From Ignavibacteriales bacterium (GTDB lineage: Bacteria > Bacteroidota > Ignavibacteria > UBA10030 > SZUA-254): 64,000 nucleotides of DNA. Of the stretch, positions 13,241 to 33,959 are shown piece after piece. Within the stretch, counting starts at the first letter, position 1. The number at the start of each line of letters is the position of its first letter. The position numbers were made by a program, and so were the translations under genes. Below the pieces are notes generated by a model. That model made no database searches. It was given only the letters and a program-made list of their open reading frames with translations, and was not told the origin of the DNA. Where the stretch lies: the NCBI GenBank assembly GCA_016214905.1, contig JACRMQ010000007.1, positions 1,005,695 through 1,069,694 of the forward strand, written 5' to 3'.

Positions 13241-14185
13241 TTATATTTTGGCAGATAGTGTTATAAAATGAATTGCGTGTGGTGCAAATGAATCATAAAT
13301 AAATGCGTACGATAATGCGGGTTCAAATCCGGCTACCGGTTTTCTGACAGTAAAACCGAACGAAGGTTTAGCGCCGGTTCGATCGGTTCCGAATTCGATT
13401 CTGTCAACGCCACCACGGATTTGAAAATATTCGATCATTGAGTATTCGGCTCCAAACCGAAGAATATTAGTGCTTTGATTAGAGTTTTCGAAGTCAACCG
13501 CAACCGTAATTTCAGGATCTTCAAGACAATAAGCGAAACCGATTCTTCTTAATGTTGGAAATTTATCGGTAGTTGGTTTACCAAGCGGTTCGGGGTAGAT
13601 AGGTTTAGTGTCCCAAATATATTTAGAACCTATATCTTGTAACGCAACACCCAAGTATAACCGATCAATCAGGTGAAAGTGAGCACCGATGTCGAATCCG
13701 ACGGTTGTGGAAGTTACTTCTTCAAATAATTTGTTGTGATAAAGTTTTACCGCTACACCAAGTGATACTCCCTCGCTGACCTGATTAGAAAAAGCGAGTG
13801 CGAATTGATAATCGTATGTTGAATAATCTTCAGTGTGTACACCGTTGCTGTTCCTTCCGTCGATGTTGCTCACTCCCGCTTTGATGATTGAAGCAGAAAT
13901 GCCGGCGGTCGGAGGAATCGATTGGGTGTAACTTAAAGAGGTAAGTGATCTGTCGAGCGATAAAAATCCGAACGAAGCATTTGCCGAGCGAGTTTTTGAA
14001 AACGCAGAGAGTGCCGGATTATAATATGCAAATATCTCATCTGAATTGACGGCAGTAAGCGCGTTGCCCATTGCCATACCGCGTGCCCCGAATCCCATTC
14101 TTGCAAAAGCCCCTGCTTTGCCGGCGTTCTGAGAAAAACTTTGTTGAGAATAAATGATCAATAAAAATAAAATTATACGTTTCAT
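13241..14185 (-). CDS. PorV/PorQ family outer-membrane protein, second copy
   Basis: The start at 14185 is preferred because it gives a clean signal peptide (MKRIILFLLIIYSQQSFSQ) and lies one base after the stop of the upstream gene. An upstream ATG at 14230 would overlap that gene. The 314-residue product has the family signature ARMGFGARGMAMGNALTAV followed by YYNPALS, with barrel-like alternating strands to the end. It is diverged from its neighbour. The pair may handle the BNR-type secreted protein encoded just upstream. Confidence 0.87.
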   Translation of the reverse strand: MKRIILFLLIIYSQQSFSQNAGKAGAFARMGFGARGMAMGNALTAVNSDEIFAYYNPALSAFSKTRSANASFGFLSLDRSLTSLSYTQSIPPTAGISASIIKAGVSNIDGRNSNGVHTEDYSTYDYQFALAFSNQVSEGVSLGVAVKLYHNKLFEEVTSTTVGFDIGAHFHLIDRLYLGVALQDIGSKYIWDTKPIYPEPLGKPTTDKFPTLRRIGFAYCLEDPEITVAVDFENSNQSTNILRFGAEYSMIEYFQIRGGVDRIEFGTDRTGAKPSFGFTVRKPVAGFEPALSYAFIYDSFAPHAIHFITLSAKI

Positions 14186-14186
14186 A

Positions 14187-15812
14187 TTATTGCAGCACCA
14201 AAATTTTTCCATACGTGGATTCATTATCATCGATTTTTACCAGATAGAAATATACTCCGTTCGCAACAACAGTGCCTTTATCATCTCTACCATCCCAAAG
14301 TTCATCTAATTCCAGATTGTCGGGCCGGGTTGCGTTGTTTAGTAATGTTCTCACGCGGTTCATACCGAAATCAAAAATTTCTATTGTTACACTTCGACTT
14401 CCTGTGGAATTAGGGTCTCCAGATTTTTTTCCGTAGTGGATGCGGACATATGCATCCGCTGCGGGGAGTGCGGTTGATGGAGCAAATGGATTCGGGTATG
14501 CGTATGTTTCAGATGAATTACCCACAGATGCGAATGTTCTATAGATAGTCCAACTTTTACCGAATGGATTTTCACTATTGTCGATTGTTCTGGCAAATCC
14601 TTCGTTCGTTCCAACATAAACAGAGTCACCGATTACATCGACTGAATAAACTTTTGCTGAATAAATATATTGATGCGATAAATGATCAGCCAAATCTGAT
14701 ATTCTTATGAAATTCTCACCGCCATCGTTAGTTCGATAAATTCCATCTTCGGTTGCAATGTATGCGATTGAATCTTTGAATGCGAAACCGTAAGCGCGAA
14801 TTCCATGCAGCCGGTTAGTCCATGTTTCTCCGAAATCGTCAGAATAACTCACACCGAATTCTTCACGATTGTCTTGTGCTCGCCAATTGGTAGTCCACAA
14901 ACGTTTGATGCCCGAGAAGCGTTGTTCTTTTATCGAGATCACCCAATTCCCAAGTATCGGTAATGCCTGATTTTGATGATTCATTTTTGTCCAACTTATA
15001 CCGCCGTCAGTAGATCGGTTCACACCGTCGGCGGTTCCGCACCAAATAGTATCGGGACTCACCGCATATACTGAAAACGCAAGCAAATTATTATTTAACC
15101 GCGGATCGTATTTAATAAAAATTCTTTTTTTTCTTTCCGGGTCATTCGGTGCAAATGAGTAAAGGGTGTCTGTAGGAGAGATGATATTCATATTGTCGAG
15201 AGGTAACAATATTCGTTGCCATGTTTGACCGTTATCGGTAGATTTTCTTAAACTGCTCGCCCAGCTTGCAATCCAAATGCTACCTGAAGTTATCGAAATA
15301 TCGAAAGTTACATTTTGTTCCGGTACGATTACAGGAAGAATCCGAATTGAGTCGTTTATGCATGGATAACCGGGCGGGCAATAGGAAATTATGCTATCTC
15401 CGTTTTGATCTATCACTTGTTCAAAATGTTGCCATGTATTTCCCGCGTCGAAAGAAGCAGCATACCCACCGCCGGTTTGAACACCATTTCCGTTTACATC
15501 TTTCTCGTATCCCATTGCAGCCCAAATAGTATCTCCGTAGGTTGAGATTGCAAAAATGCCTGAATAAGCAAATGCGGGATCGGTTTTAAACGATAACCAG
15601 CTTCTACCTCCATCTAAACTCTTGGCGAGTCCATTACCTGTGCCTATGTAGATCGCCGAATTGTTTACAACAGTATGTGAGACGCTGTTGCTGGGTGGGA
15701 AGGTTGTAGCTTCAATTTCATTGAGAGAATAATTTTTCAAGAATATTGATTGTCCGTTTGAAATTTGAAGAACTAAAACGACAAGTATTGAAATTAAATA
15801 AATATATTTCAT
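14187..15812 (-). CDS. Secreted BNR/sialidase-like repeat protein with FlgD-like C-terminal domain
   Basis: The ATG at 15812 gives a proper signal peptide (about 20 residues ending ISNGQS); the upstream TTG at 15839 is less likely. The mature protein is a beta-propeller of repeats with the BNR pattern S-x-D-x-G-x-T/S-W (for example SLDGGRSW, STDNGQTW, STDGGISW). The last 90 residues resemble the FlgD immunoglobulin-like domain (IEIFDFGMNRVR, ELWDGRDDKG, VANGVYFYLVK), often found at the end of exported proteins of this phylum. No catalytic sialidase residues can be assigned. A role in surface binding or assembly is inferred. Confidence 0.82.
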   Translation of the reverse strand: MKYIYLISILVVLVLQISNGQSIFLKNYSLNEIEATTFPPSNSVSHTVVNNSAIYIGTGNGLAKSLDGGRSWLSFKTDPAFAYSGIFAISTYGDTIWAAMGYEKDVNGNGVQTGGGYAASFDAGNTWQHFEQVIDQNGDSIISYCPPGYPCINDSIRILPVIVPEQNVTFDISITSGSIWIASWASSLRKSTDNGQTWQRILLPLDNMNIISPTDTLYSFAPNDPERKKRIFIKYDPRLNNNLLAFSVYAVSPDTIWCGTADGVNRSTDGGISWTKMNHQNQALPILGNWVISIKEQRFSGIKRLWTTNWRAQDNREEFGVSYSDDFGETWTNRLHGIRAYGFAFKDSIAYIATEDGIYRTNDGGENFIRISDLADHLSHQYIYSAKVYSVDVIGDSVYVGTNEGFARTIDNSENPFGKSWTIYRTFASVGNSSETYAYPNPFAPSTALPAADAYVRIHYGKKSGDPNSTGSRSVTIEIFDFGMNRVRTLLNNATRPDNLELDELWDGRDDKGTVVANGVYFYLVKIDDNESTYGKILVLQ

Positions 15813-15835
15813 GGTATAGTTTGAAAAAGGAGTAC

Positions 15836-16651
15836 TCAAGGTAAAATTGTAATAGTATGTAATAACGAATCTGAAACAGCGCCCGATTTATCGACAGCTC
15901 TAAATAAAAATATTTGATCGCCGAGCCGAGCTGTAGAATCTATACTCAGAATCCGCGAGAAAATTCCATCTAATGCAATATTGTCTCCATCACGACTTTT
16001 ATCACCATCGTCATAAAGATAGATTGGGCTGGTTTCAGTGGGGTAAATTCTTTTGATATAAACAGACTCTAGATCGTTATATCCATCTGAATCATTCACG
16101 GTAGTATTAAAAAATAACAATTCAATACCAGTGGCAGGGCGGGTTAATGTATCCGGCGCTGTATAATTTATTAACTGTGGTTTACTATTATTTCGTGTTA
16201 TATATAAAAATTTTTCAATGGTGTTACTTGATGAAGAATTATCTGATTTCAAAGAGAATGTTAGTCTGAATGCACCTGCATCTCCTCTGTTGATTGTCAT
16301 CGATACAGAGGATGAAAAATAAATTGAATCTACTCCGACAGAATCGATATCAAACGATATTGTAGAAAATGGTGAGGGGGAAGATGGTTTAAAGATTTGT
16401 AAAATGCCGGAGACAGGTTGATGCATTAACTCTTTTGATCCGCTGCCATGGAAATTGATTTTTATTTTGTATTTATTATTTCCGAGATTATCGACACTAT
16501 TTGTGGTATCGTTATCCAGATCGATAATATTTTGGGTGAATATTACGTTTGATAAATAGGGAGCTTTAGAAACCGGATCAATGATGCTGGTTTTTTCATA
16601 TTGGCACGAAATCAGCGACAATGATAATAATATTGGGAAGAATTGTTTCAT
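15836..16651 (-). CDS. Lipoprotein, unknown function
   Basis: The ATG at 16651 gives a lipoprotein signal with lipobox LISC, the Cys being residue 16; a longer reading from 16699 would bury this signal. The roughly 271-residue product has beta-rich segments. Near its C-terminus, YDDGDKSRDGDNIALDGIFS is followed by a strand-rich stretch ending DSLLHTITILP, resembling immunoglobulin or cadherin-like domains. It is the first gene of the PorV/PorQ operon, and its stop precedes the next start by about 24 bp. Function not recognised; an outer-membrane partner of the BNR protein is possible. Confidence 0.72.
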   Translation of the reverse strand: MKQFFPILLSLSLISCQYEKTSIIDPVSKAPYLSNVIFTQNIIDLDNDTTNSVDNLGNNKYKIKINFHGSGSKELMHQPVSGILQIFKPSSPSPFSTISFDIDSVGVDSIYFSSSVSMTINRGDAGAFRLTFSLKSDNSSSSNTIEKFLYITRNNSKPQLINYTAPDTLTRPATGIELLFFNTTVNDSDGYNDLESVYIKRIYPTETSPIYLYDDGDKSRDGDNIALDGIFSRILSIDSTARLGDQIFLFRAVDKSGAVSDSLLHTITILP

Positions 16652-16841: not shown

Positions 16842-17786
16842 TTATGGAATATCGATGAATGGAATTGGCGAGAAGGATAAAATAAATATGACTAGTGAGA
16901 AAAGCCCTAATAATTTCCTCCTGGTTGATAAATGTTCAACAATCGCTGTTTGTGGGTGGTCTAATTTTACGATAAAATACAACATTATCCCCCAAACGAG
17001 CCATCCGATTGACGCCGGATAAATTTGAGAGATGATCGCATGGATAACGCTTATTAATCCAGCTAAAATTAGACTGAAAAAGAAAATTCGGGCTACAATT
17101 CGATGTATTTTATTTCCAAACATAGCATAAACAATATGCCCACCATCCAATTGACCTACTGGCATAAGATTAAGTCCTGTTACAAACAACCCGAACCAAC
17201 CGACACATAAATACGGATAATGATAAATCTCATTCATCGGGGGAAAAAACACGGATTTTGGTATAATTTTTTCAAATATCGTGAATAATAAAGAATCACC
17301 GAAATATAATCCGTTGGAAGGAATAATATTCAGCGCCTGATACTCAGGGTGGATAGTAAAGATATAATCTTTTTGCGGGAGGGTGAAAAATCCCAAAACC
17401 AGAAAAATGATGCTCACACAAAATCCGGCGATGGGACCCGCAATGCCAATATCAAATAAGGCAGATGTTGTACGAGGGGTTGATTTCATTCTTATCAAAG
17501 CTCCCATAGTCCCGAACGGATTTATCAAAAACGGTGGTGCAGGGATGAAATAAGGCAGTGTTGTTTCGACATTATGAAATTTTGCAGCGAAATAATGCCC
17601 GAATTCGTGGCTGAGTAGAAAAATAAGAATAAAAGATGAATATTGAATCCCGGATGAAAAATTTGACAGTTCTAAAGGATCTTGATTTAACCATTGTACG
17701 CCGGCTAAAGTTGTAGTCAAAAATGTAGCTAAAAATAAAATACCGTAGAGAATTAGGTGATAAATTTTCGTTTTTTTATTAATCAT
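16842..17786 (-). CDS. Site-2-protease family (M50) intramembrane zinc metalloprotease
   Basis: A 314-residue protein with about seven membrane helices. The zinc motif HEFGH is at residues 60-64 and the third ligand region NLMPVGQLDGGH at 206-217 (Asp214), so the active site is complete. No PDZ domain is present, unlike RseP. Family members cut membrane-anchored regulators or clear signal peptides within the membrane. It lies downstream of the small repeat-protein gene on the same strand but behind that gene's terminator. Separate or partly read-through expression is therefore likely. Confidence 0.87.
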   Translation of the reverse strand: MINKKTKIYHLILYGILFLATFLTTTLAGVQWLNQDPLELSNFSSGIQYSSFILIFLLSHEFGHYFAAKFHNVETTLPYFIPAPPFLINPFGTMGALIRMKSTPRTTSALFDIGIAGPIAGFCVSIIFLVLGFFTLPQKDYIFTIHPEYQALNIIPSNGLYFGDSLLFTIFEKIIPKSVFFPPMNEIYHYPYLCVGWFGLFVTGLNLMPVGQLDGGHIVYAMFGNKIHRIVARIFFFSLILAGLISVIHAIISQIYPASIGWLVWGIMLYFIVKLDHPQTAIVEHLSTRRKLLGLFSLVIFILSFSPIPFIDIP

Positions 17787-17806: not shown

Positions 17807-17840
17807 AAAAAAAAGCCCTGAATTACAGAATTCAGGGCTT
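17807..17840 (-). terminator. Intrinsic terminator of the repeat-protein gene
   Basis: A perfect 12-bp stem (17813-17824 with 17829-17840) with a 4-nt loop. On the minus strand it is followed by a run of T (the A-run at 17807-17814 on the plus strand). It lies 18 bp after the repeat-protein stop and before the protease start. Confidence 0.88.
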
Positions 17841-17858: not shown

Positions 17859-18089
17859 TTACGGTTTTGGTGAATCCGGAAGTAGTGGGATGGTACTCTT
17901 CGGTTTTGGTGAATCTGGTAACAATGGAATTGTACTCTTCGGTTTCGGTGAATCCGGAAGTAGTGGGATAGTACTTTTCGGTTTCGGTGAATCCGGAAGT
18001 AATGGAATCGTTGAAGCGAATGAAATAAGGATATTCGCTACTAAAACCATCAATATTGTAATAAATATTGCTCTAAATTTTTTAAACAT
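17859..18089 (-). CDS. Small secreted proline-rich tandem-repeat protein
   Basis: A 76-residue product: a basic start and hydrophobic signal segment (residues 1 to about 25), then three copies of TIPLLPDSPKPKS and a final TIPLLPDSPKP. Nothing else follows, so the exported part would be about 50 residues of pure repeat. At least two units carry several synonymous changes, yet the repeats encode identical residues. The opposite reading gives varied residues (GSS versus GNN), which argues strongly that this strand is coding. A consensus ribosome site, a promoter and a terminator frame it. I do not recognise the family; a secreted peptide or precursor is one reading. Confidence 0.8.
   Translation of the reverse strand: MFKKFRAIFITILMVLVANILISFASTIPLLPDSPKPKSTIPLLPDSPKPKSTIPLLPDSPKPKSTIPLLPDSPKP
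17862..18009. repeat. Tandem 39-bp repeat, about 3.8 copies
   Basis: Units begin at 17862, 17901, 17940 and 17979; the last is incomplete. The period is a multiple of three and encodes the 13-residue repeat. Unit differences fall mainly at third codon positions on the minus strand. Confidence 0.93.
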
Positions 18090-18096
18090 GATACAT

Positions 18097-18102
18097 CTCC
18101 TT
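18097..18102 (-). promoter_or_regulatory. Consensus ribosome binding site of the repeat-protein gene
   Basis: AAGGAG on the minus strand, 7 nt before the ATG at 18089. It fixes the start codon and shows the gene is built for efficient translation. Confidence 0.85.
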
Positions 18103-18168
18103 ATAATTGTGTCGTAAATTAATTTATTCTAGCCTAAATGGGGGTATCGAAGGAAAATTTACTTATCA

Positions 18169-18197
18169 AATATAGAATGAATGAGGTTTCCTATCAA
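18169..18197 (-). promoter_or_regulatory. Sigma-70 promoter of the repeat-protein gene
   Basis: Minus-strand TTGATA (18192-18197), 17-bp spacer, TATATT (18169-18174). The expected start near 18162 gives a leader of about 70 nt. Confidence 0.6.
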
Positions 18198-18240: not shown

Positions 18241-18292
18241 TTGTGAGATATATCACCTTTTTATTTATATATAAAATTATTTGCGAATGCCC

Positions 18293-18321
18293 TTGACATA
18301 TCAACGGCTTTTGTATATATT
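18293..18321 (+). promoter_or_regulatory. Near-consensus sigma-70 promoter of the membrane protein/regulator operon
   Basis: TTGACA (18293-18298), 17 bp and TATATT (18316-18321). This is the best promoter match in the window. Transcription should start near 18328, 30 nt before the ATG at 18358. Confidence 0.7.
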
Positions 18322-18357: not shown

Positions 18358-19488
18358 ATGCGTCAAAGTTTCAAAATTATATTGATTTGGGGAATGATCC
18401 TTTTTATTTATTTTGTATCACTCTCTCTTTTTTCTACATCAACGTCCCCGTTCTCCGCTCATATTAATCAATTAGTTCAATCGTTACTTTTTATCATATC
18501 TATTTTTATTCTTCTAAAAGAACCAAATCGTAGAAATCGATTTATATTTTTAAATTTTGCAATATTCTTTAGCTTGTCATTATTTTCTTTGGGATATGAT
18601 TTCATTCATAGAGATTTATTTATTCAAAAATATTCTCGGCATATATATTTACAATATGTATCAATTGCGTATATTACTCTGAATTCTTTCGCAGTGGTAT
18701 ATTTAGTTATTGATTTACTCTTCCGAGAATTTAAAGTGTTTCAAAAATATTTATGCACCACGTTTATCATCGGCGCAGCTACCCTACTCGTATTTTATCC
18801 TTATTTCAGCAATCCAAAATATTTATATGAAACGAATGATATTAAACAGTATAAAACACTCGATGATTTTGTTCAAACTCATCGTTCAGATATAGGATCG
18901 AGCGGGCTTGATATAGCATTGCAGGTGACATTAAAATCATGGTCTGATGGTCATGAAGTTGCTGAGTTATTACCTGAGGAGAATTTAAAAAGAATTCAGA
19001 GTTTAATACCTTATCTCGAAAAGGATAATTGGAGAATACTACTGTGGGCTCCACTTTACAGACAAATTATTTATATCGAAGTATTAATCATCGGTTTCAT
19101 ACTTCTTTTTTTTGGATACCAATATAAAAAAGATCCACCTCAAGGTGCATATATAGATAAAATTATGTTTCTTGTTTTGCTATTAAGTTCCATGGACATT
19201 ATTCATAATTGGGGTTTTATTAAAAGTGTTGAGTGGGGATCTATGACCGAATTGTTTACAATCGGTCAGTATATAACGGTATTTGCAGAGCTCATGATGG
19301 TTCTGTTTTTTGCCTTGCGACTCAAGTTTATTAGTTCAGTTCAAGGTGAATTTTATGAAACCGAAATTGCAACACATCCTGAGAAAGTTAGCAGATGGAG
19401 AGATTGGGTAGATAATTTGGTACTTGCTCAATTTTTTAACTATAAGATTTTTAATGGTAGATTATTTCAGAATCCTTCTGGAAAATAG
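18358..19488 (+). CDS. Polytopic membrane protein of unknown function
   Basis: A 376-residue protein. About five hydrophobic helices fill residues 5-148, then a roughly 85-residue polar segment (about 150-235) and about three more helices. A soluble basic tail of about 50 residues ends the protein. The layout, with a large loop between membrane blocks, resembles sensors or transport-like receptors, but no known domain is recognised. No Shine-Dalgarno sequence is clear. It is followed after 32 bp by the AAA+ regulator and shares its promoter, so a sensing role is plausible but inferred. Confidence 0.65.
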   Translation: MRQSFKIILIWGMILFIYFVSLSLFSTSTSPFSAHINQLVQSLLFIISIFILLKEPNRRNRFIFLNFAIFFSLSLFSLGYDFIHRDLFIQKYSRHIYLQYVSIAYITLNSFAVVYLVIDLLFREFKVFQKYLCTTFIIGAATLLVFYPYFSNPKYLYETNDIKQYKTLDDFVQTHRSDIGSSGLDIALQVTLKSWSDGHEVAELLPEENLKRIQSLIPYLEKDNWRILLWAPLYRQIIYIEVLIIGFILLFFGYQYKKDPPQGAYIDKIMFLVLLLSSMDIIHNWGFIKSVEWGSMTELFTIGQYITVFAELMMVLFFALRLKFISSVQGEFYETEIATHPEKVSRWRDWVDNLVLAQFFNYKIFNGRLFQNPSGK

Positions 19489-19520: not shown

Positions 19521-20549
19521 ATGGAAAAAGAAATTAAAACAAAAAATACTGAAGAGCAGAAAACAACCGGTATGGAATATCCAATTATTGGCAAAAGTCG
19601 ATCCATAGAACAACTTATCAAGCAAATCAATTCGCTCGCAAAAACTCGTCGTGATGTTTTGGTAATCGGGGAAGCTGGTATTGGAAAAGGGGCGGTTGCA
19701 AAAAATATTCATTCAACCGGCAGCCAAGAAGGCGAACACAAACCGTTCATGTCAATTAACCTCTCAGTGCTCGATGATAAAGAATTAGAAGCTGTGCTGT
19801 TCGGTTATGAGCGTGGTGGTGATGGATTGCCATACTCTACTAAACGTGGTCTATTCGAGTTGGCTAATGGTGGTACCGTTCTTATCGAGGAAATCGAGGA
19901 AGCCAGCTTTCGGAATCAGATGAAAATTCTCTCATTCATGAATGAAAGGGCAACACGCCGCATCGGCAGTGTGAAAGCAGAACCGATAGATATCAGATTG
20001 ATTGTAACCGTAAAGGAGGATCCAAGAATTCTTGTTGAAAAAAGAAAATTGATGGATGATTTAGTCATTAAGATGAACGATTTCGACAGGATTGTGATTC
20101 CACCGCTCAGGGAAAGACCTGAAGATATTCCTCTTCTTATCAAACATTTTGCGAATGAATTGTGTCATGAACTTGGAATTGGTGAACTGGTAATAGATAT
20201 AAATGCGATTGATGTTTTAGTTAGGCAAACATGGCGCGAGAACATACGTGAACTGAAAGCCGTCGTCGATAAATCGGTTCTCTTTTCAAACAGCGGTCGT
20301 TTTATGCTTCCACCCGAGCTCGTGGATGAAAAGACCGAAGTTGTAAAAATGATTAACAACATTGCAAATGGGCAAGATTTTATTCTCGATCGTTCTCTTG
20401 ATGCGATAGAAAAAGGTATTATTGAAAGGGCGTTACAAAAATTCGCATTTAATCAATCGCGCGCCGCCTCTTTTTTGGGTATGACAGAACAAACTCTCCG
20501 CTATAAGCTTAAACGTCTTAATATAGCGAGTGCAAGAACACGCGTTTAA
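19521..20549 (+). CDS. AAA+ Fis-type transcriptional regulator lacking the GAFTGA motif
   Basis: A 342-residue protein with the AAA+ core of sigma-54 enhancer-binding proteins and a C-terminal Fis helix-turn-helix (about 300-335). Walker A is GEAGIGKG (50-57), Walker B ends in EE (VLIEEI) rather than DE, and PPLRERPEDI is intact. The sigma-54-contacting loop GAFTGA is replaced by a segment around GYERGGDGLP (95-104). The two arginine-finger positions appear to be Met and Lys. There is no receiver or other N-terminal sensor domain. It probably does not activate sigma-54 in the usual way and may repress or work through a partner. AGAGG before the ATG supports the start. Confidence 0.83.
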   Translation: MEKEIKTKNTEEQKTTGMEYPIIGKSRSIEQLIKQINSLAKTRRDVLVIGEAGIGKGAVAKNIHSTGSQEGEHKPFMSINLSVLDDKELEAVLFGYERGGDGLPYSTKRGLFELANGGTVLIEEIEEASFRNQMKILSFMNERATRRIGSVKAEPIDIRLIVTVKEDPRILVEKRKLMDDLVIKMNDFDRIVIPPLRERPEDIPLLIKHFANELCHELGIGELVIDINAIDVLVRQTWRENIRELKAVVDKSVLFSNSGRFMLPPELVDEKTEVVKMINNIANGQDFILDRSLDAIEKGIIERALQKFAFNQSRAASFLGMTEQTLRYKLKRLNIASARTRV

Positions 20550-20603: not shown

Positions 20604-21704
20604 TTATGTAAGAGATCTTTTTTTCCAGACCACGTTTCGACTAAAAAATGCGATAAATGGAATAACTAAAACATATATCAAGAAATACAGTAAAAATGGG
20701 AATACAAATTTAAAATATTTCCTTACTCTGAATCGTCCTAATATTTTTTCAAGAAAAATCATTTCTCCAATACTTGTTATTACAAATGCAACCGCTGTAA
20801 TTTTAGGATCCAGGAAAAATAATGATATCAGTATAAGAAACTTAGCCATCCACCCAACAAACATTATCAAATATCCTCTCAAAATCATATCGGTGCCACC
20901 AACACCCCACCGTTTTTTTTGACGATATAATTGTTCCCAGCTTTTACAGGCACTGCTCTGTACTAAACAATTTGGTTCAAGAGGGAATTTAATTTTGTAC
21001 TCCGTTCGTTGTAAGATCGATTGAACCAGGGCATAATCTTCTGTTACACTGAATGGAATATCCTTGTAACCGCCAACCTCTTTGTATGCTTGCATTCTTA
21101 TGGCAAGATTATTTCCAATCGCAGTTAATGGAATCTTTAAACCCGATGTTGCAGATGCAAGCCCGAAAAGAAATAACCAATCGAGTGCCTGGATCCCCTC
21201 GAATGAACGATTTGCGTTTAACAACGTGAATCCACCCACGATACCTGTATCATCACCGAAATATTTTACAGTTTCCTTTACCCAGTTTTTTGGTACGCGA
21301 CAATCGGCATCTGTGAATAATACTATTTCACCTATCGCTGTTTCCATACCCTGGGCAATCGCATTTGCCTTTCCGCGTAGATTCCCGGTGCCAGTCGTGG
21401 TTGTGACCATTCTAAGATTTCTTCCGGTATGAGCAAATGATTGAACTATTTCCGGTGTTTTATCAGTCGATGAATCGTTGACGATAATAATTTCAAATTT
21501 ATTTTCGGGATAATCGATTTTAAGAAGGGATGTTATGCAATCACCTATGAATTCCTCTTCATCGCGGGCGGCAACCATTATAGTTACATAGGGTTCATAC
21601 CCGAGTTGTTGTGAAAGATGATCCGATTTCCAAATCCCTATTCGTAGGATTATTAGTTCGATCAGATATATTCCGATTGCGGTAAAAAGTATAATCAACA
21701 GCAT
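20604..21704 (-). CDS. Membrane-bound family 2 glycosyltransferase
   Basis: A 366-residue protein with one N-terminal helix, a GT-A catalytic domain and about three C-terminal helices. Catalytic motifs are complete: VNDSSTDKT for the nucleotide, FTDADCRV for the metal, TEDYAL for the base and QKKRWGVGG for the acceptor channel (the Q-x-x-R-W form of processive or ceramide-type enzymes). The product could be a glycolipid or polysaccharide. It stands alone, divergent from uridine kinase, away from the main polysaccharide locus. Confidence 0.85.
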   Translation of the reverse strand: MLLIILFTAIGIYLIELIILRIGIWKSDHLSQQLGYEPYVTIMVAARDEEEFIGDCITSLLKIDYPENKFEIIIVNDSSTDKTPEIVQSFAHTGRNLRMVTTTTGTGNLRGKANAIAQGMETAIGEIVLFTDADCRVPKNWVKETVKYFGDDTGIVGGFTLLNANRSFEGIQALDWLFLFGLASATSGLKIPLTAIGNNLAIRMQAYKEVGGYKDIPFSVTEDYALVQSILQRTEYKIKFPLEPNCLVQSSACKSWEQLYRQKKRWGVGGTDMILRGYLIMFVGWMAKFLILISLFFLDPKITAVAFVITSIGEMIFLEKILGRFRVRKYFKFVFPFLLYFLIYVLVIPFIAFFSRNVVWKKRSLT

Positions 21705-29606: not shown

Positions 29607-30974
29607 ATGAGATTTAAGAATTTTTATCTATTGATTCTGATTCTGGCTTTGGTTCAATTCGGACAAAGTCAAATCAGTGTGAAGTATGAAAAATTTACTC
29701 TCCCGAACGGATTAACTGTTATCCTTCATGAAGACCACACAATACCGGTAGCAACTGCGAATATCTGGTATCATGTCGGATCTGGGAATGAAAAGCCCGG
29801 ACGAACAGGATTTGCACATCTTTTCGAGCACCTTATGTTTATGGGATCGAAGAATGTTCCTGTTGGGAAATTCGATGAATGGCTTGAAGCCGCAGGCGGT
29901 GATAACAACGGCTCAACAACTACAGATAGAACTAACTATTGGGAAAACTTCCCGAACAGCGCGCTGGATCTTGCGCTTTTCCTTGAATCGGATCGGATGG
30001 GATATTTGGTTGATGCAATGTCACCTGAAAAAGTCGACGCCCAGCGTGATGTTGTAAAAAATGAACGAAGGCAATCGTACGAAAATCGTCCTTACGGAAT
30101 GGCATCGATCATGATAAGTGAGAATCTTTTCTCCGCGGATCATCCGTATCACTGGCCCACGATAGGTTCGCAGGAAGATTTATCTGCGGCAAGTTTTCAG
30201 GATGTTGTAGATTTCTTTAAAAAATATTATGTCCCCAATAATGCAAGCTTGGTAATTGCAGGAGATATCGATCCTGTAAAAACAAAAGAGCAGGTAACTA
30301 AATGGTTCAGCGATGTCCCGATGGGAAAACCGGTTGTGCCTTTTGGCGTGCCGGTAGCATTTCTTCCTGAACCGAAGCGGTTAGTGTTGGAAGATAAAGT
30401 TCAACTGCCGAGATTATATCTAAACTGGATAACGCCGAAACATTTCGCGCCGGGCGATGCAGAACTTGATATTCTTGCTCAGGTTCTCGCCGGAGGAAAA
30501 AATTCCCGCATCTACAAACGTCTTGTGTACGACATGCAAATTGCTCAGGATGTAACGGCTTATCAGGATGCGAGCTTTTTGAATTCAACATTCTCCATAA
30601 TTGTTACTGCTAGAAGCGGTATAAGTTTATCTCAAATCGAAAAAATTATCTGGGAAGAAATTAATAAAGTGAAAAACGAAGCCCCTGCACTCCGTGAGGT
30701 GCAACGTGCTGTGAACCAGTATGAAGCAAGTTTTCTTATGCGGATGGAACGTGTTGGCGGTTTCGGCGGCAAAGCAGATTTACTTAATGCTTACTTTGTG
30801 GAAACAGGCAACCCCGATTATTTCAACGAAGATATGTCGAGATATAAAGCGCTCACACCGGGCGATGTAAGCTCAGTCTGTTCTACATTCTTGCGGAATG
30901 ACGGATATGTTTTATTAAGCGTAGTGCCGCAGGGTAAAAAGGAATTAGCCGCTGATGAGAAAGGAGCGAAGTAA
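29607..30974 (+). CDS. Exported M16 zinc peptidase, catalytic subunit
   Basis: A 455-residue protein with a signal peptide (about 1-22), so periplasmic. The zinc site HLFEH is at residues 71-75 and the Arg/Asp-rich strand NNGSTTTDRTNYWENF follows, as in PqqL-like peptidases. It pairs with the next gene, which has lost the zinc motif. The two probably form a heterodimer like mitochondrial processing peptidase or the Sphingomonas-type M16A/B complexes. GGAG lies 6 nt before the ATG. Confidence 0.92.
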   Translation: MRFKNFYLLILILALVQFGQSQISVKYEKFTLPNGLTVILHEDHTIPVATANIWYHVGSGNEKPGRTGFAHLFEHLMFMGSKNVPVGKFDEWLEAAGGDNNGSTTTDRTNYWENFPNSALDLALFLESDRMGYLVDAMSPEKVDAQRDVVKNERRQSYENRPYGMASIMISENLFSADHPYHWPTIGSQEDLSAASFQDVVDFFKKYYVPNNASLVIAGDIDPVKTKEQVTKWFSDVPMGKPVVPFGVPVAFLPEPKRLVLEDKVQLPRLYLNWITPKHFAPGDAELDILAQVLAGGKNSRIYKRLVYDMQIAQDVTAYQDASFLNSTFSIIVTARSGISLSQIEKIIWEEINKVKNEAPALREVQRAVNQYEASFLMRMERVGGFGGKADLLNAYFVETGNPDYFNEDMSRYKALTPGDVSSVCSTFLRNDGYVLLSVVPQGKKELAADEKGAK

Positions 30975-30976
30975 AA

Positions 30977-32455
30977 ATGAAAAAGTCAAAAGGAAAAAAT
31001 AAAAAACTAACTTTGAATATTATTACCGGATTAGTGTTAGTTATGTTATTCGGGAGTTTTGTTTTCGCACAAATCCCGGATCGAAGCAAACCACCAGAAT
31101 TAGGTCCGCCACCTTCATTAAAACTTCCGCCTATTCAGCATCTGAAACTTTCAAACGGTATTCCTGTTATGCTGATGGAAAAACGTCAGGTTCCGCTTGT
31201 ACAAATTGAGCTGCTTGTGAAGGCAGGGTCGGTGAGCGATCCAAAAGGCAAAATCGGACTTGCGAGTTTAACTACCGCAATGATGGAAGAGGGCGCGGGC
31301 AGTCGTAATTCGCTTGAACTTGCTGATGCAATAGATTTCCTTGGCGCCAGCATTAATGCATTTTCAAGCTGGCACACGGCAGGTGTATCGATGTTTGCAC
31401 CGTTGTCGAAATTGGATGAAGCGTTGCCGTTGTTCGGAGATGTCGCATTAAAACCGACATTCCCGGCTGAAGAGTTGGAGCGAAACAGGAAAGAACGTCT
31501 CACCACATTAATGCAGTGGCATGATGAGCCAAGGGCTATCGCATCTGTGCAGTTCGGCAGGACGATTTTCGGCGGAGATCATCCGTACGGTCGCGGTAAT
31601 ATGGGAAATGAGAAATCTATCCGTTCTTTTAAAGTTGATGATCTCAAGAAATTTCATCAAACATATTTCCGTTCCAATAATGCTCAGTTGATTGTCACGG
31701 GAGATGTAACTGCCTCCGATATAATTCCGAAACTTGAAGCGATATTCGGAAAGTGGGAAAGCGGTAATATTGAGAAACTTGATTTCCCCAAAGCCGAACA
31801 GGTAAGCGAACGGAAAATATATTTAATCGATAAACCGGGCGCGCCGCAATCAGAAATCCGTATCGGCAGAATTGGTGCTGAACGGATGACTGAAGATTTT
31901 TACGCGTTGCGGGTTATGAACACGATTCTTGGCGGTTCGTTCACCTCGCGTCTCAATAATAATTTACGTGAACAGCATGGTTACACTTATGGTGCAAGCT
32001 CGAATTTCGATTTCCGTATGTTCCCCGGACCATTTCTTGCAGGTTCCGCGGTTCACACGCAAAAAACCGACAGCGCTGTTATTGAATTCTTCAAAGAATT
32101 AAACCGGATTGCCGAGTTGATTCCCGATGAAGAATTGAATCGCGCGAAGAATTACATTGCATTGCGATATCCCGAAAATTTCCAAACAGTTGGGCAGATC
32201 GCAAACCAGCTTGCCGAAATTATCAGTTACGGTTTGACGGATGATTACTTCAATAACTACACAAAGAATATTCTATCAGTTACAAAAGAAGACGTTCAGC
32301 GTGTGGCGAAAAAGTATATTGACCCCACTAAGGTTGCGATCATATTAGTAGGTGATAGAAAGACAATCGAAAAACCTCTCGAGGCATTGAAGTTAGGAAA
32401 GATTGTAAACCTCACTATTCAGGATGTGTTGGGAAAACCACCAAAGGTTGAATAA
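30977..32455 (+). CDS. Exported M16 peptidase homolog without the zinc motif
   Basis: A 492-residue partner of the preceding peptidase, starting two bases after its stop with AAAGGAG upstream. A hydrophobic signal covers about residues 13-34. At the place of HxxEH the sequence is IGLASLTTAMM, so the ligands His, Glu and His appear as Ser, Thr and Ala. It cannot bind zinc in the normal way. The C-terminal M16 half (GGSFTSRLNNNLREQHGYTY) is well kept, consistent with a substrate-binding subunit. Confidence 0.9.
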   Translation: MKKSKGKNKKLTLNIITGLVLVMLFGSFVFAQIPDRSKPPELGPPPSLKLPPIQHLKLSNGIPVMLMEKRQVPLVQIELLVKAGSVSDPKGKIGLASLTTAMMEEGAGSRNSLELADAIDFLGASINAFSSWHTAGVSMFAPLSKLDEALPLFGDVALKPTFPAEELERNRKERLTTLMQWHDEPRAIASVQFGRTIFGGDHPYGRGNMGNEKSIRSFKVDDLKKFHQTYFRSNNAQLIVTGDVTASDIIPKLEAIFGKWESGNIEKLDFPKAEQVSERKIYLIDKPGAPQSEIRIGRIGAERMTEDFYALRVMNTILGGSFTSRLNNNLREQHGYTYGASSNFDFRMFPGPFLAGSAVHTQKTDSAVIEFFKELNRIAELIPDEELNRAKNYIALRYPENFQTVGQIANQLAEIISYGLTDDYFNNYTKNILSVTKEDVQRVAKKYIDPTKVAIILVGDRKTIEKPLEALKLGKIVNLTIQDVLGKPPKVE

Positions 32456-33710: not shown

Positions 33711-33959
33711 AATCGCTCCGTTTAATAAAAATAGTGATACAAATTTAAATAAAATTCAAACCAATATAATAAAAATGATGGAAAAGAGAAAAAAAGAAAC
33801 TGGTTAGTTATGAGTTATTTGTCCAATACAAATATCGCACATCTCTCATCTCTCATCTCAAATCGCACATCTAAACTTGAACATCCAATATCCGATATCA
33901 TCCTTCATCCCCCTGTTACTCTTTGTTTCTCCATTCTCTTTTTGCTATATTTTACCACC

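Follow-up and report, generated by a model that had tools for sequence, protein, structure and literature searches.

Why should a bacterial gene keep four copies of a short peptide identical in protein while the DNA that encodes them changes? The question is raised by a 64,000-nucleotide stretch of an Ignavibacteriales genome (contig JACRMQ010000007.1 of assembly GCA_016214905.1; hereafter the window), in which a 76-codon gene on the minus strand (17859..18089) encodes a signal-peptide-like leader followed by tandem repeats. A first-pass annotation made from the DNA letters had described it as a tiny secreted protein of no recognised family, with repeats maintained by selection on the peptide. 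Here we report that strong purifying selection keeps the copies alike within such genes, that the gene has relatives in many genomes up to the level of the order, and that it is linked to the genes of a membrane protein and a DNA-binding regulator. We incline to the view that, in this Gram-negative lineage, the repeat gene encodes a peptide pheromone in multiple copies and the other two genes encode its receptor and a regulator.

A repeat gene under purifying selection

The precursor begins with the leader MFKKFRAIFITILMVLVANILISFA (18015..18089), which abuts the first repeat and whose signal-peptide nature and cleavage are judged by eye from the A-x-A rule. Four tandem STIPLLPDSPKP(K) units follow on the same strand: units 1 to 3 read STIPLLPDSPKPK (17976..18014, 17937..17975 and 17898..17936) and unit 4 reads STIPLLPDSPKP (17862..17897), the stop being reached without the K. 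The repeat was first framed as three full copies of TIPLLPDSPKPKS with a fourth terminating in PKP-stop; the identity of the copies stands, and the frame has been moved one residue earlier, to STIPLLPDSPKP-K, because both the leader end and the relatives place it there. An Asn in the leader is invariant among 20 aligned relatives; the hidden Markov model (HMM) of the leader contains two wrongly cut rows (L071, L074; L and G numbers denote loci and genomes).

The repeat protein is present on the minus strand as described, and its units do differ in DNA and agree in protein: 7 of the 13 codon columns vary among the four units with no amino-acid difference, and the pairwise differences are confined to third codon positions and, in Leu codons, to first positions, with none at position 2. 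The opposite strand would give varying residues, as its open frame (17890-18117, plus strand) would read GESGNNG, GESGSSG or GESGSNG. Searches bore out that the family is not a recognised one, the precursor having no match in Pfam over the cut-off, in NCBIfam at E<=0.01 or in PHROGs; the precursor of a relative, L083, had one weak PHROGs match (E 0.014), to a family without assigned function. Across the whole window, neither the Rfam nor the tRNA scan returned anything.

The relatives tell the same story on a larger scale. Comparison of adjacent units in 36 genes yielded 380.5 synonymous differences over 946 sites and 48.5 non-synonymous differences over 2501 sites, a pN/pS of 0.048 for which repeat regions were picked by amino-acid similarity and mutation paths averaged, part of the non-synonymous count being a path artefact (it amounts to 4.2 in the window gene, whose units agree at every residue). 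This comparison took in 37 genes, one of which (L077) has one unit only, and left out L065, L083, L119, L126, L127 and L130; the start codons of several precursors were assigned by hand. Changes at codon positions 1, 2 and 3 numbered 45, 15 and 369, far from equal. In L083, nine SGGPIAPSDIPRP cores are identical in protein with 13 of 13 codon columns variable. The earlier claim of selection acting on the peptide is upheld by the pN/pS value and by this nine-copy gene: strong purifying selection keeps copies alike within a gene.

Between species, the unit changes. The window unit STIPLLPDSPKP is replaced elsewhere by STVPLLPDSPRP, AGIPILPDSPRP, SGVAHMPDSPRP, SGVMNIPDPPRP, MGVGVRPESPRP, TAIGQSTGDVRP, GLLPAPPQAPFP, TAATYMYPKDTPKP, SGEGSYPLPPPP and others, the copies within one gene being identical or nearly so. 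The cores have about 11-14 residues. A form met often among them, varying slightly, is SG-x(4)-P-x-x-P-(R/K)-P, parts of which are absent from a few cores. In seven of eight congeneric pairs the core differs, mostly at middle residues, and the change is carried by all or nearly all copies; the eighth pair (G023/G028) shares its core in 4 and 2 copies. Two loci (L078 5193-5694, L070 36-614) each hold two tandem precursor paralogues, and those of L078 differ (SGPTAPEPPRP and SGPTAPPPPIP, the last copy of the latter being of the other type), perhaps a peptide type in the course of changing.

Spacers and signs of processing

The core is the functional unit of the precursor. The eight inner spacers of L083 (TLVDSR three times, TR twice, and TRVRNLTAR, TRGHELTAR and TRAQVLSAR) are of five kinds and differ in length, and every one ends in R directly before a core, as is also seen in L119 and L078. 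In L119, L078, L062, L063 and L127 the cores are constant, at three or four per gene, and the short spacers variable. In the single-copy precursors of a genus of another family a core SGN(S/T)M(L/F)PD(S/A)P(D/H)P is kept, and three congeners retain it, as SGNSMLPDSPDP, SGNTMLPDSPHP and SGNTMFPDAPHP, between diverged flanks. Copy number ranges from 1 to 9.

Basic residues before the cores suggest proteolytic release. With core starts set by hand, K or R stands directly before 103 of the 146 cores of 43 precursors (27 first cores and 76 of the 103 later ones), a set that includes the paralogue pairs of L070 and L078 and leaves out L173, L174 and, in both L053 and L059, the one copy that deviates from the core as typed. 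The remaining cores are preceded by A, T, D, S or M; ten first cores follow an A, several of them at an A-x-A-like leader end. A proline after K or R blocks trypsin-like cleavage, and inside the cores P comes next in 130 of the 141 occurrences of K or R. The junction between units in the window is a single K after P. In the window gene and in L051-L053, L062, L063 and L066 the first core begins at the leader end, so that signal peptidase could make the same N-terminus there as cleavage after K or R could make for the later cores.

Linkage and distribution

The precursor gene lies divergent from the membrane-protein gene, and in most loci the regulator gene comes next after the latter. Among the 46 main-clade loci read, a precursor occupies the divergent place in 41; in the other five (L057, L064, L068, L085 and L150) the contig breaks off within the membrane gene or no more than 300 bp before its start. 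The regulator of L173 and L174 is not on the contig.

Homologues that keep a conserved repeat were a test that the first-pass annotation had set beforehand; among 40 whole genomes from the same genus up to the order, the window's own included, at least 23 have such a relative. The precursor search matched 28 of the 40 at E<=1; once the open reading frames (ORFs) of the fetched matches had been read, true relatives remained in 20 genomes and the rest of the fetched matches looked like chance, and the membrane-protein search added precursors in G019, G022 and G033 (L127, L126 and L135). A single scan of named genomes with a divergent membrane-protein profile gave 35 loci, nearly all from metagenome-assembled genomes, labelled Ignavibacteria, Ignavibacteriae, Ignavibacteriales, Bacteroidetes/Bacteroidota, Chlorobiaceae or Chlorobi, with one Nomurabacteria and one uncultured bacterium. 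Membrane-protein matches occurred in 45 of 98 genomes of the order and in 49 of 391 sampled genomes of the class (five outside the order, all of one genus), both figures including short contig-end fragments whose sequences were not retrieved (e.g. G072, G100, G110), and in 9 of 395 sampled genomes of the phylum, every one within the order. The viral contigs and plasmids searched held no relative of the membrane protein, and a viral or plasmid origin was rejected on this ground.

Eleven paralogous loci in these genomes showed no repeat gene (L141 and L149 by HMM and pattern scans only). At four of them a divergent small ORF encodes a hydrophobic leader and a Pro-rich C-terminal stretch, possibly a sister one-copy peptide system. 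These four loci (L140 1201-4188, L142 4149-6926, L145 333-2899, L146 4226-6656) carry a second paralogous membrane-protein/regulator pair with a shortened AAA+ domain. In a further locus (L084/L037 1914-2851) the membrane gene is in two overlapping frames, probably through a frameshift or assembly error.

The membrane protein

The putative receptor (18358..19488, plus strand) is a 376-residue membrane protein of unknown family. AlphaFold2 models from 33 sequences (predicted local distance difference test 81.8 and predicted template modelling score 0.79 for the window protein; 84.7 and 0.81 for L071) show eight long helices, of which helices 5 and 6 are separated by some 70 residues that include a beta hairpin and are placed outside; the tail is modelled at low confidence. 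On the inferred topology, conservation is highest in the inner loop KDPPQGAY and in the tail, and lowest at residues 1-60 and in the outer region.

Helices 2-8 of both models superpose on the seven-helix bundles of G protein-coupled receptors (GPCRs). Among the 50 Foldseek matches listed per model, GPCRs accounted for 49 (window protein) and 44 (L071), the remainder being ZorA, a potassium channel and a sigma factor, and no match in either model reached E<=0.001 (best E 0.021 and 0.14, template modelling score <0.5). VIA-align, which re-aligns Foldseek picks only, gave GPCR or GPCR-like proteins in 50 of the 50 rows listed per model (Z 13.2-14.4 and 13.3-15.2; best Z 14.4, root mean square deviation 5.3 over 238 aligned residues for the window protein, and Z 15.2, 4.0 over 222 for L071); GPCRs are abundant in the PDB, and helical bundles can reach Z 13-14. 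Because the Foldseek matches are not significant, VIA-align is limited in this way and bundles score high, we speak of a predicted GPCR-like arrangement below the level of homology, and not of a GPCR.

A profile of the 33 members had no match to PDB chains at E<=1; in Pfam none of the 33 scored over the cut-off and no GPCR family was among the 17 families listed at E<=1; and NCBIfam gave no match at E<=0.01. PAP2_3 appeared for 5 of the 33 members at E 0.0028 or worse (window protein 16.5 bits, cut-off 27). The 7TMR-DISM family of bacterial receptors was considered and found no support: its seven-helix domain PF07695 was not among the Pfam families listed for the 33 members, and the profile-profile probability was 0.3% with a profile of only two sequences.

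The regulator and expression signals

The regulator (19521..20549, plus strand) combines an AAA+ domain related to sigma-54 activators (PF00158, 3.7e-37) with a Fis-type helix-turn-helix (PF02954, 1.2e-13), and scores against PspF/NtrC-type proteins among others. The GAFTGA loop, by which such activators contact sigma-54, is present in 0 of 28 aligned members, although the genome has a sigma-54 gene. TyrR acts with the main polymerase, and because GAFTGA is missing the regulator probably does so too, by analogy. A sigma-54 promoter before the peptide gene was dropped because a -24/-12 scan of 37 upstream regions, run with start coordinates of L053, L055 and L062 that later needed correction, found no consistent site, and because of the missing GAFTGA.

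Between the two divergent units lies a palindrome, GTGA-N6-TCAC (18243..18256), which on its sequence enrichment is the best candidate operator: an exact copy stands in 18 of 38 intergenic regions, some from close relatives, against a maximum of 6 in ten shuffles, at a position that differs by clade. In the own genome it is at background (19 occurrences, 22 for the reversed control), and on this count CRP-type global regulation through it was rejected. Six of the 18 other own-genome sites are intergenic by the ORF picks; three sites (L155, C2:47877; L159, C5:203396; L169, C7:889260) are putative regulon leads, the genes behind them being a putative PspC-like gene, that of a 303-residue protein with a signal-like start, and a putative grpE/dnaJ-like pair.

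The first-pass annotation had also credited the peptide gene with a strong ribosome site, a promoter and a terminator. The ribosome binding site AAGGAG (18097..18102, minus strand) stands 7 nt before the ATG, and an intrinsic terminator with hairpin and T-tail follows the gene (17813..17840, minus strand; 1 site against 0.5 in shuffles, RNA fold z -4.6). The promoter is reduced to a consensus match, TTGATA-N17-TATATT (18169..18197, minus strand), because shuffles nearly match the count of the scan (5 sites against 3.4 +/- 2.3); a second match, TTGACA-N17-TATATT (18293..18321, plus strand), points toward the membrane protein and regulator.

Neighbouring genes

Directly downstream of the precursor lies the gene of an M50 (site-2-type) membrane protease (16842..17786, minus strand), a neighbourhood conserved in 34 of 40 loci; L032 and L035 have long downstream sequence without M50, and four loci have less than 600 bp. 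Its conserved position makes a part in processing possible, and this stays a guess because several further genes are syntenic too. The neighbours conserved on the far side of the regulator include a gene for a family 2 glycosyltransferase (20604-21704). After M50, in the window (13241-15839, minus strand) and in many relatives, come genes for a BNR/Asp-box protein, whose C-terminus is CHU_C type IX secretion-like though weakly so, and for a DUF5723-like protein, both assignments being below cut-off. Elsewhere in the window there are two short imperfect 14-bp tandem repeats (33834-33872, 30969-31005).

Proposed mechanism and alternatives

Building on the observed selection and linkage, we propose that the precursor would be exported via Sec, as its leader suggests by eye, that signal peptidase would cut before copy 1, and that a trypsin-like protease would cut after the K or R between copies (A, T or D stands there in other species), freeing peptides such as STIPLLPDSPKP. 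The eight-helix membrane protein would recognise the peptide from outside, its inner loop and tail would relay the signal to the regulator, and the regulator would control the two divergent promoters, possibly via GTGA-N6-TCAC. The whole would function as a species-specific pheromone (autoinducer) system, whose multicopy design would raise the yield per transcript.

Co-variation lends the receptor role weak backing. In 37 species with one typed core each, core distances were compared with regional distances of the membrane protein, the regulator being controlled for; under a label permutation that leaves phylogeny in the test, the relation was strongest at residues 58-121 (partial r 0.29, p 0.001; best 40-residue window, family-wise p 0.01).

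Several observations weigh against the proposal, and the phylogeny left in this test is one of them. Weaker nominal co-variation appears at residues 1-57 (p 0.025), 122-151 (p 0.033) and 241-280, the outer region (152-224) shows none with the peptide (partial r 0.01), and the whole membrane protein reaches 0.145 (p 0.075). The non-significant Foldseek matches belong here as well. How the frame was chosen accounts in part for the K or R before later copies, and junction counts draw on copies and related species that are not independent; for these reasons the R that closes the spacers of L083, L119 and L078 is the firmest sign of processing. In L059, L062, L063, L071, L074, L081 and L127 the residue directly before cores is A, T or D, so that one processing rule cannot serve all species and another rule, or trimming, is needed. 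Copies are imperfect in L061, in one copy of L053 and at single residues in L041, L059, L067, L073, L078b and L130. Finally, the membrane gene of L064 has no regulator behind it, and 7 of the 11 paralogous loci (L137-L139, L141, L143, L144 and L149) have no small ORF of the leader-and-Pro-rich kind.

Four other explanations were weighed. Multivalent binding proteins likewise keep identical repeats, the sequence is Pro-rich and several species are without K/R junctions, all of which would suit an uncleaved precursor acting as a short repetitive periplasmic or surface protein whose motifs bind a partner multivalently, with the membrane protein as partner or anchor. We hold this to be unlikely, given copy numbers from 1 to 9, free spacers, an R before the core that persists despite that freedom (L083, L119, L078), and the P that follows most K/R inside cores.

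The peptide might instead be a released effector, antimicrobial or envelope-active for example, with the membrane protein and regulator sensing something else, such as envelope stress, and controlling the effector or giving immunity. The PspF/NtrC-type scores of the regulator would agree with this, as would the palindromes, at background frequency, before the PspC-like gene and the grpE/dnaJ-like pair, and PRP motifs are reminiscent of insect proline-rich antimicrobial peptides. It nonetheless seems to us quite improbable: many cores contain D or E and carry little net charge, the change of middle residues between species with the ends kept fits recognition better, and the annotated window neighbours include no transporter or immunity gene, most conserved neighbours elsewhere being unannotated.

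We give very little credence to a multi-core ribosomally synthesised and post-translationally modified peptide (RiPP), or an otherwise modified one, in which every copy would be altered enzymatically; some RiPP precursors do share a leader and repeated cores (a fungal example: PMC7329392) and a glycosyltransferase is a conserved neighbour, but the seven Pfam-annotated window neighbours include no typical RiPP enzyme and the N-terminus resembles a signal peptide, not a recognition leader. Recent DNA homogenisation alone, with the peptide unselected, can practically be dismissed, since the few synonymous unit differences of L055, L069, L079 and L042 (only 2 each) are outweighed by the many members that already contradict it, with synonymous sites near saturation and no residue change (L062 9/10.3, L066 8/8.3, L044 29/38.6) or, in L083, variation in all columns.

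If the peptide is indeed a pheromone, this module of linked precursor, membrane protein and regulator, with its species-specific peptides, would represent a new class of signalling, found in a Gram-negative lineage. About 40 natural peptide/membrane-protein pairs (41 loci) would be at hand for the study of ligand-receptor co-change, each species offering a defined peptide that is simple to synthesise and add, and the models raise the possibility of a GPCR-like bacterial receptor. To our knowledge, it is chiefly Gram-positive bacteria and eukaryotes that use linear peptide pheromones with dedicated receptors; a literature search over titles and abstract openings found no description of such a system.

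Comparison with known systems

Four sequence families, those of RRNPPA systems, fungal KEX2-processed repeat proteins (KEPs), sigma-54 activators and GPCRs, are each set apart from the present system by at least one of the defining features tested here. Like sigma-54 activators (bacterial enhancer-binding proteins, bEBPs), the regulator has an AAA+ domain and a Fis-type helix-turn-helix, but it lacks their GAFTGA in 28 of 28 aligned sequences. Unlike GPCRs, the membrane protein is bacterial, has an extra N-terminal helix, matches no PDB chain in sequence at E<=1 and has no significant Foldseek E.

RRNPPA receptors are tetratricopeptide repeat (TPR) proteins (PMC10075063), cytoplasmic and found in Bacillota (PMC9765709, PMC3601965), and in Rap-Phr of Bacillus phages some propeptides carry the pheromone once or in up to four identical or similar copies (PMC11343458). 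In such systems a secreted propeptide is encoded beside its receptor gene. Here a small ORF with a signal-peptide-like leader lies divergent from the gene of a putative receptor; the window neighbours are an eight-helix membrane protein and an AAA+/Fis regulator and not a cytoplasmic TPR receptor, the lineage is Gram-negative, and there are up to nine copies. For Enterococcus sex pheromones, the site-2 protease Eep raises production from signal peptides (PMC10202637). An M50 gene lies directly downstream here, its position suggesting a possible role, but the pheromone in Enterococcus comes from the signal peptide itself, whereas the repeats here lie behind it.

The closest parallels are eukaryotic. 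The yeast alpha-factor precursor has variable spacers and basic junctions, the KEX2 site being dibasic. Both it (PMC5850478) and the fungal KEPs (PMC6339444) combine a secretion leader with several identical or near-identical cores released by protease, in a copy number that varies among close relatives. The precursor described here shares the secretion signal, as judged by eye, and the several identical cores; it differs in its junctions, which hold one K/R or some other residue and follow no KEX2 dibasic rule, in being bacterial, in its Pro-rich core and in its adjacent membrane protein and DNA-binding regulator. The fullest version of our proposal, an alpha-factor-like system of the Ignavibacteria group with a species-specific multicopy peptide, a receptor of GPCR-like architecture and a bEBP-derived, sigma-54-independent regulator, is offered tentatively, as rather less probable than not, and its likeness to alpha-factor and the KEPs would be one of design.
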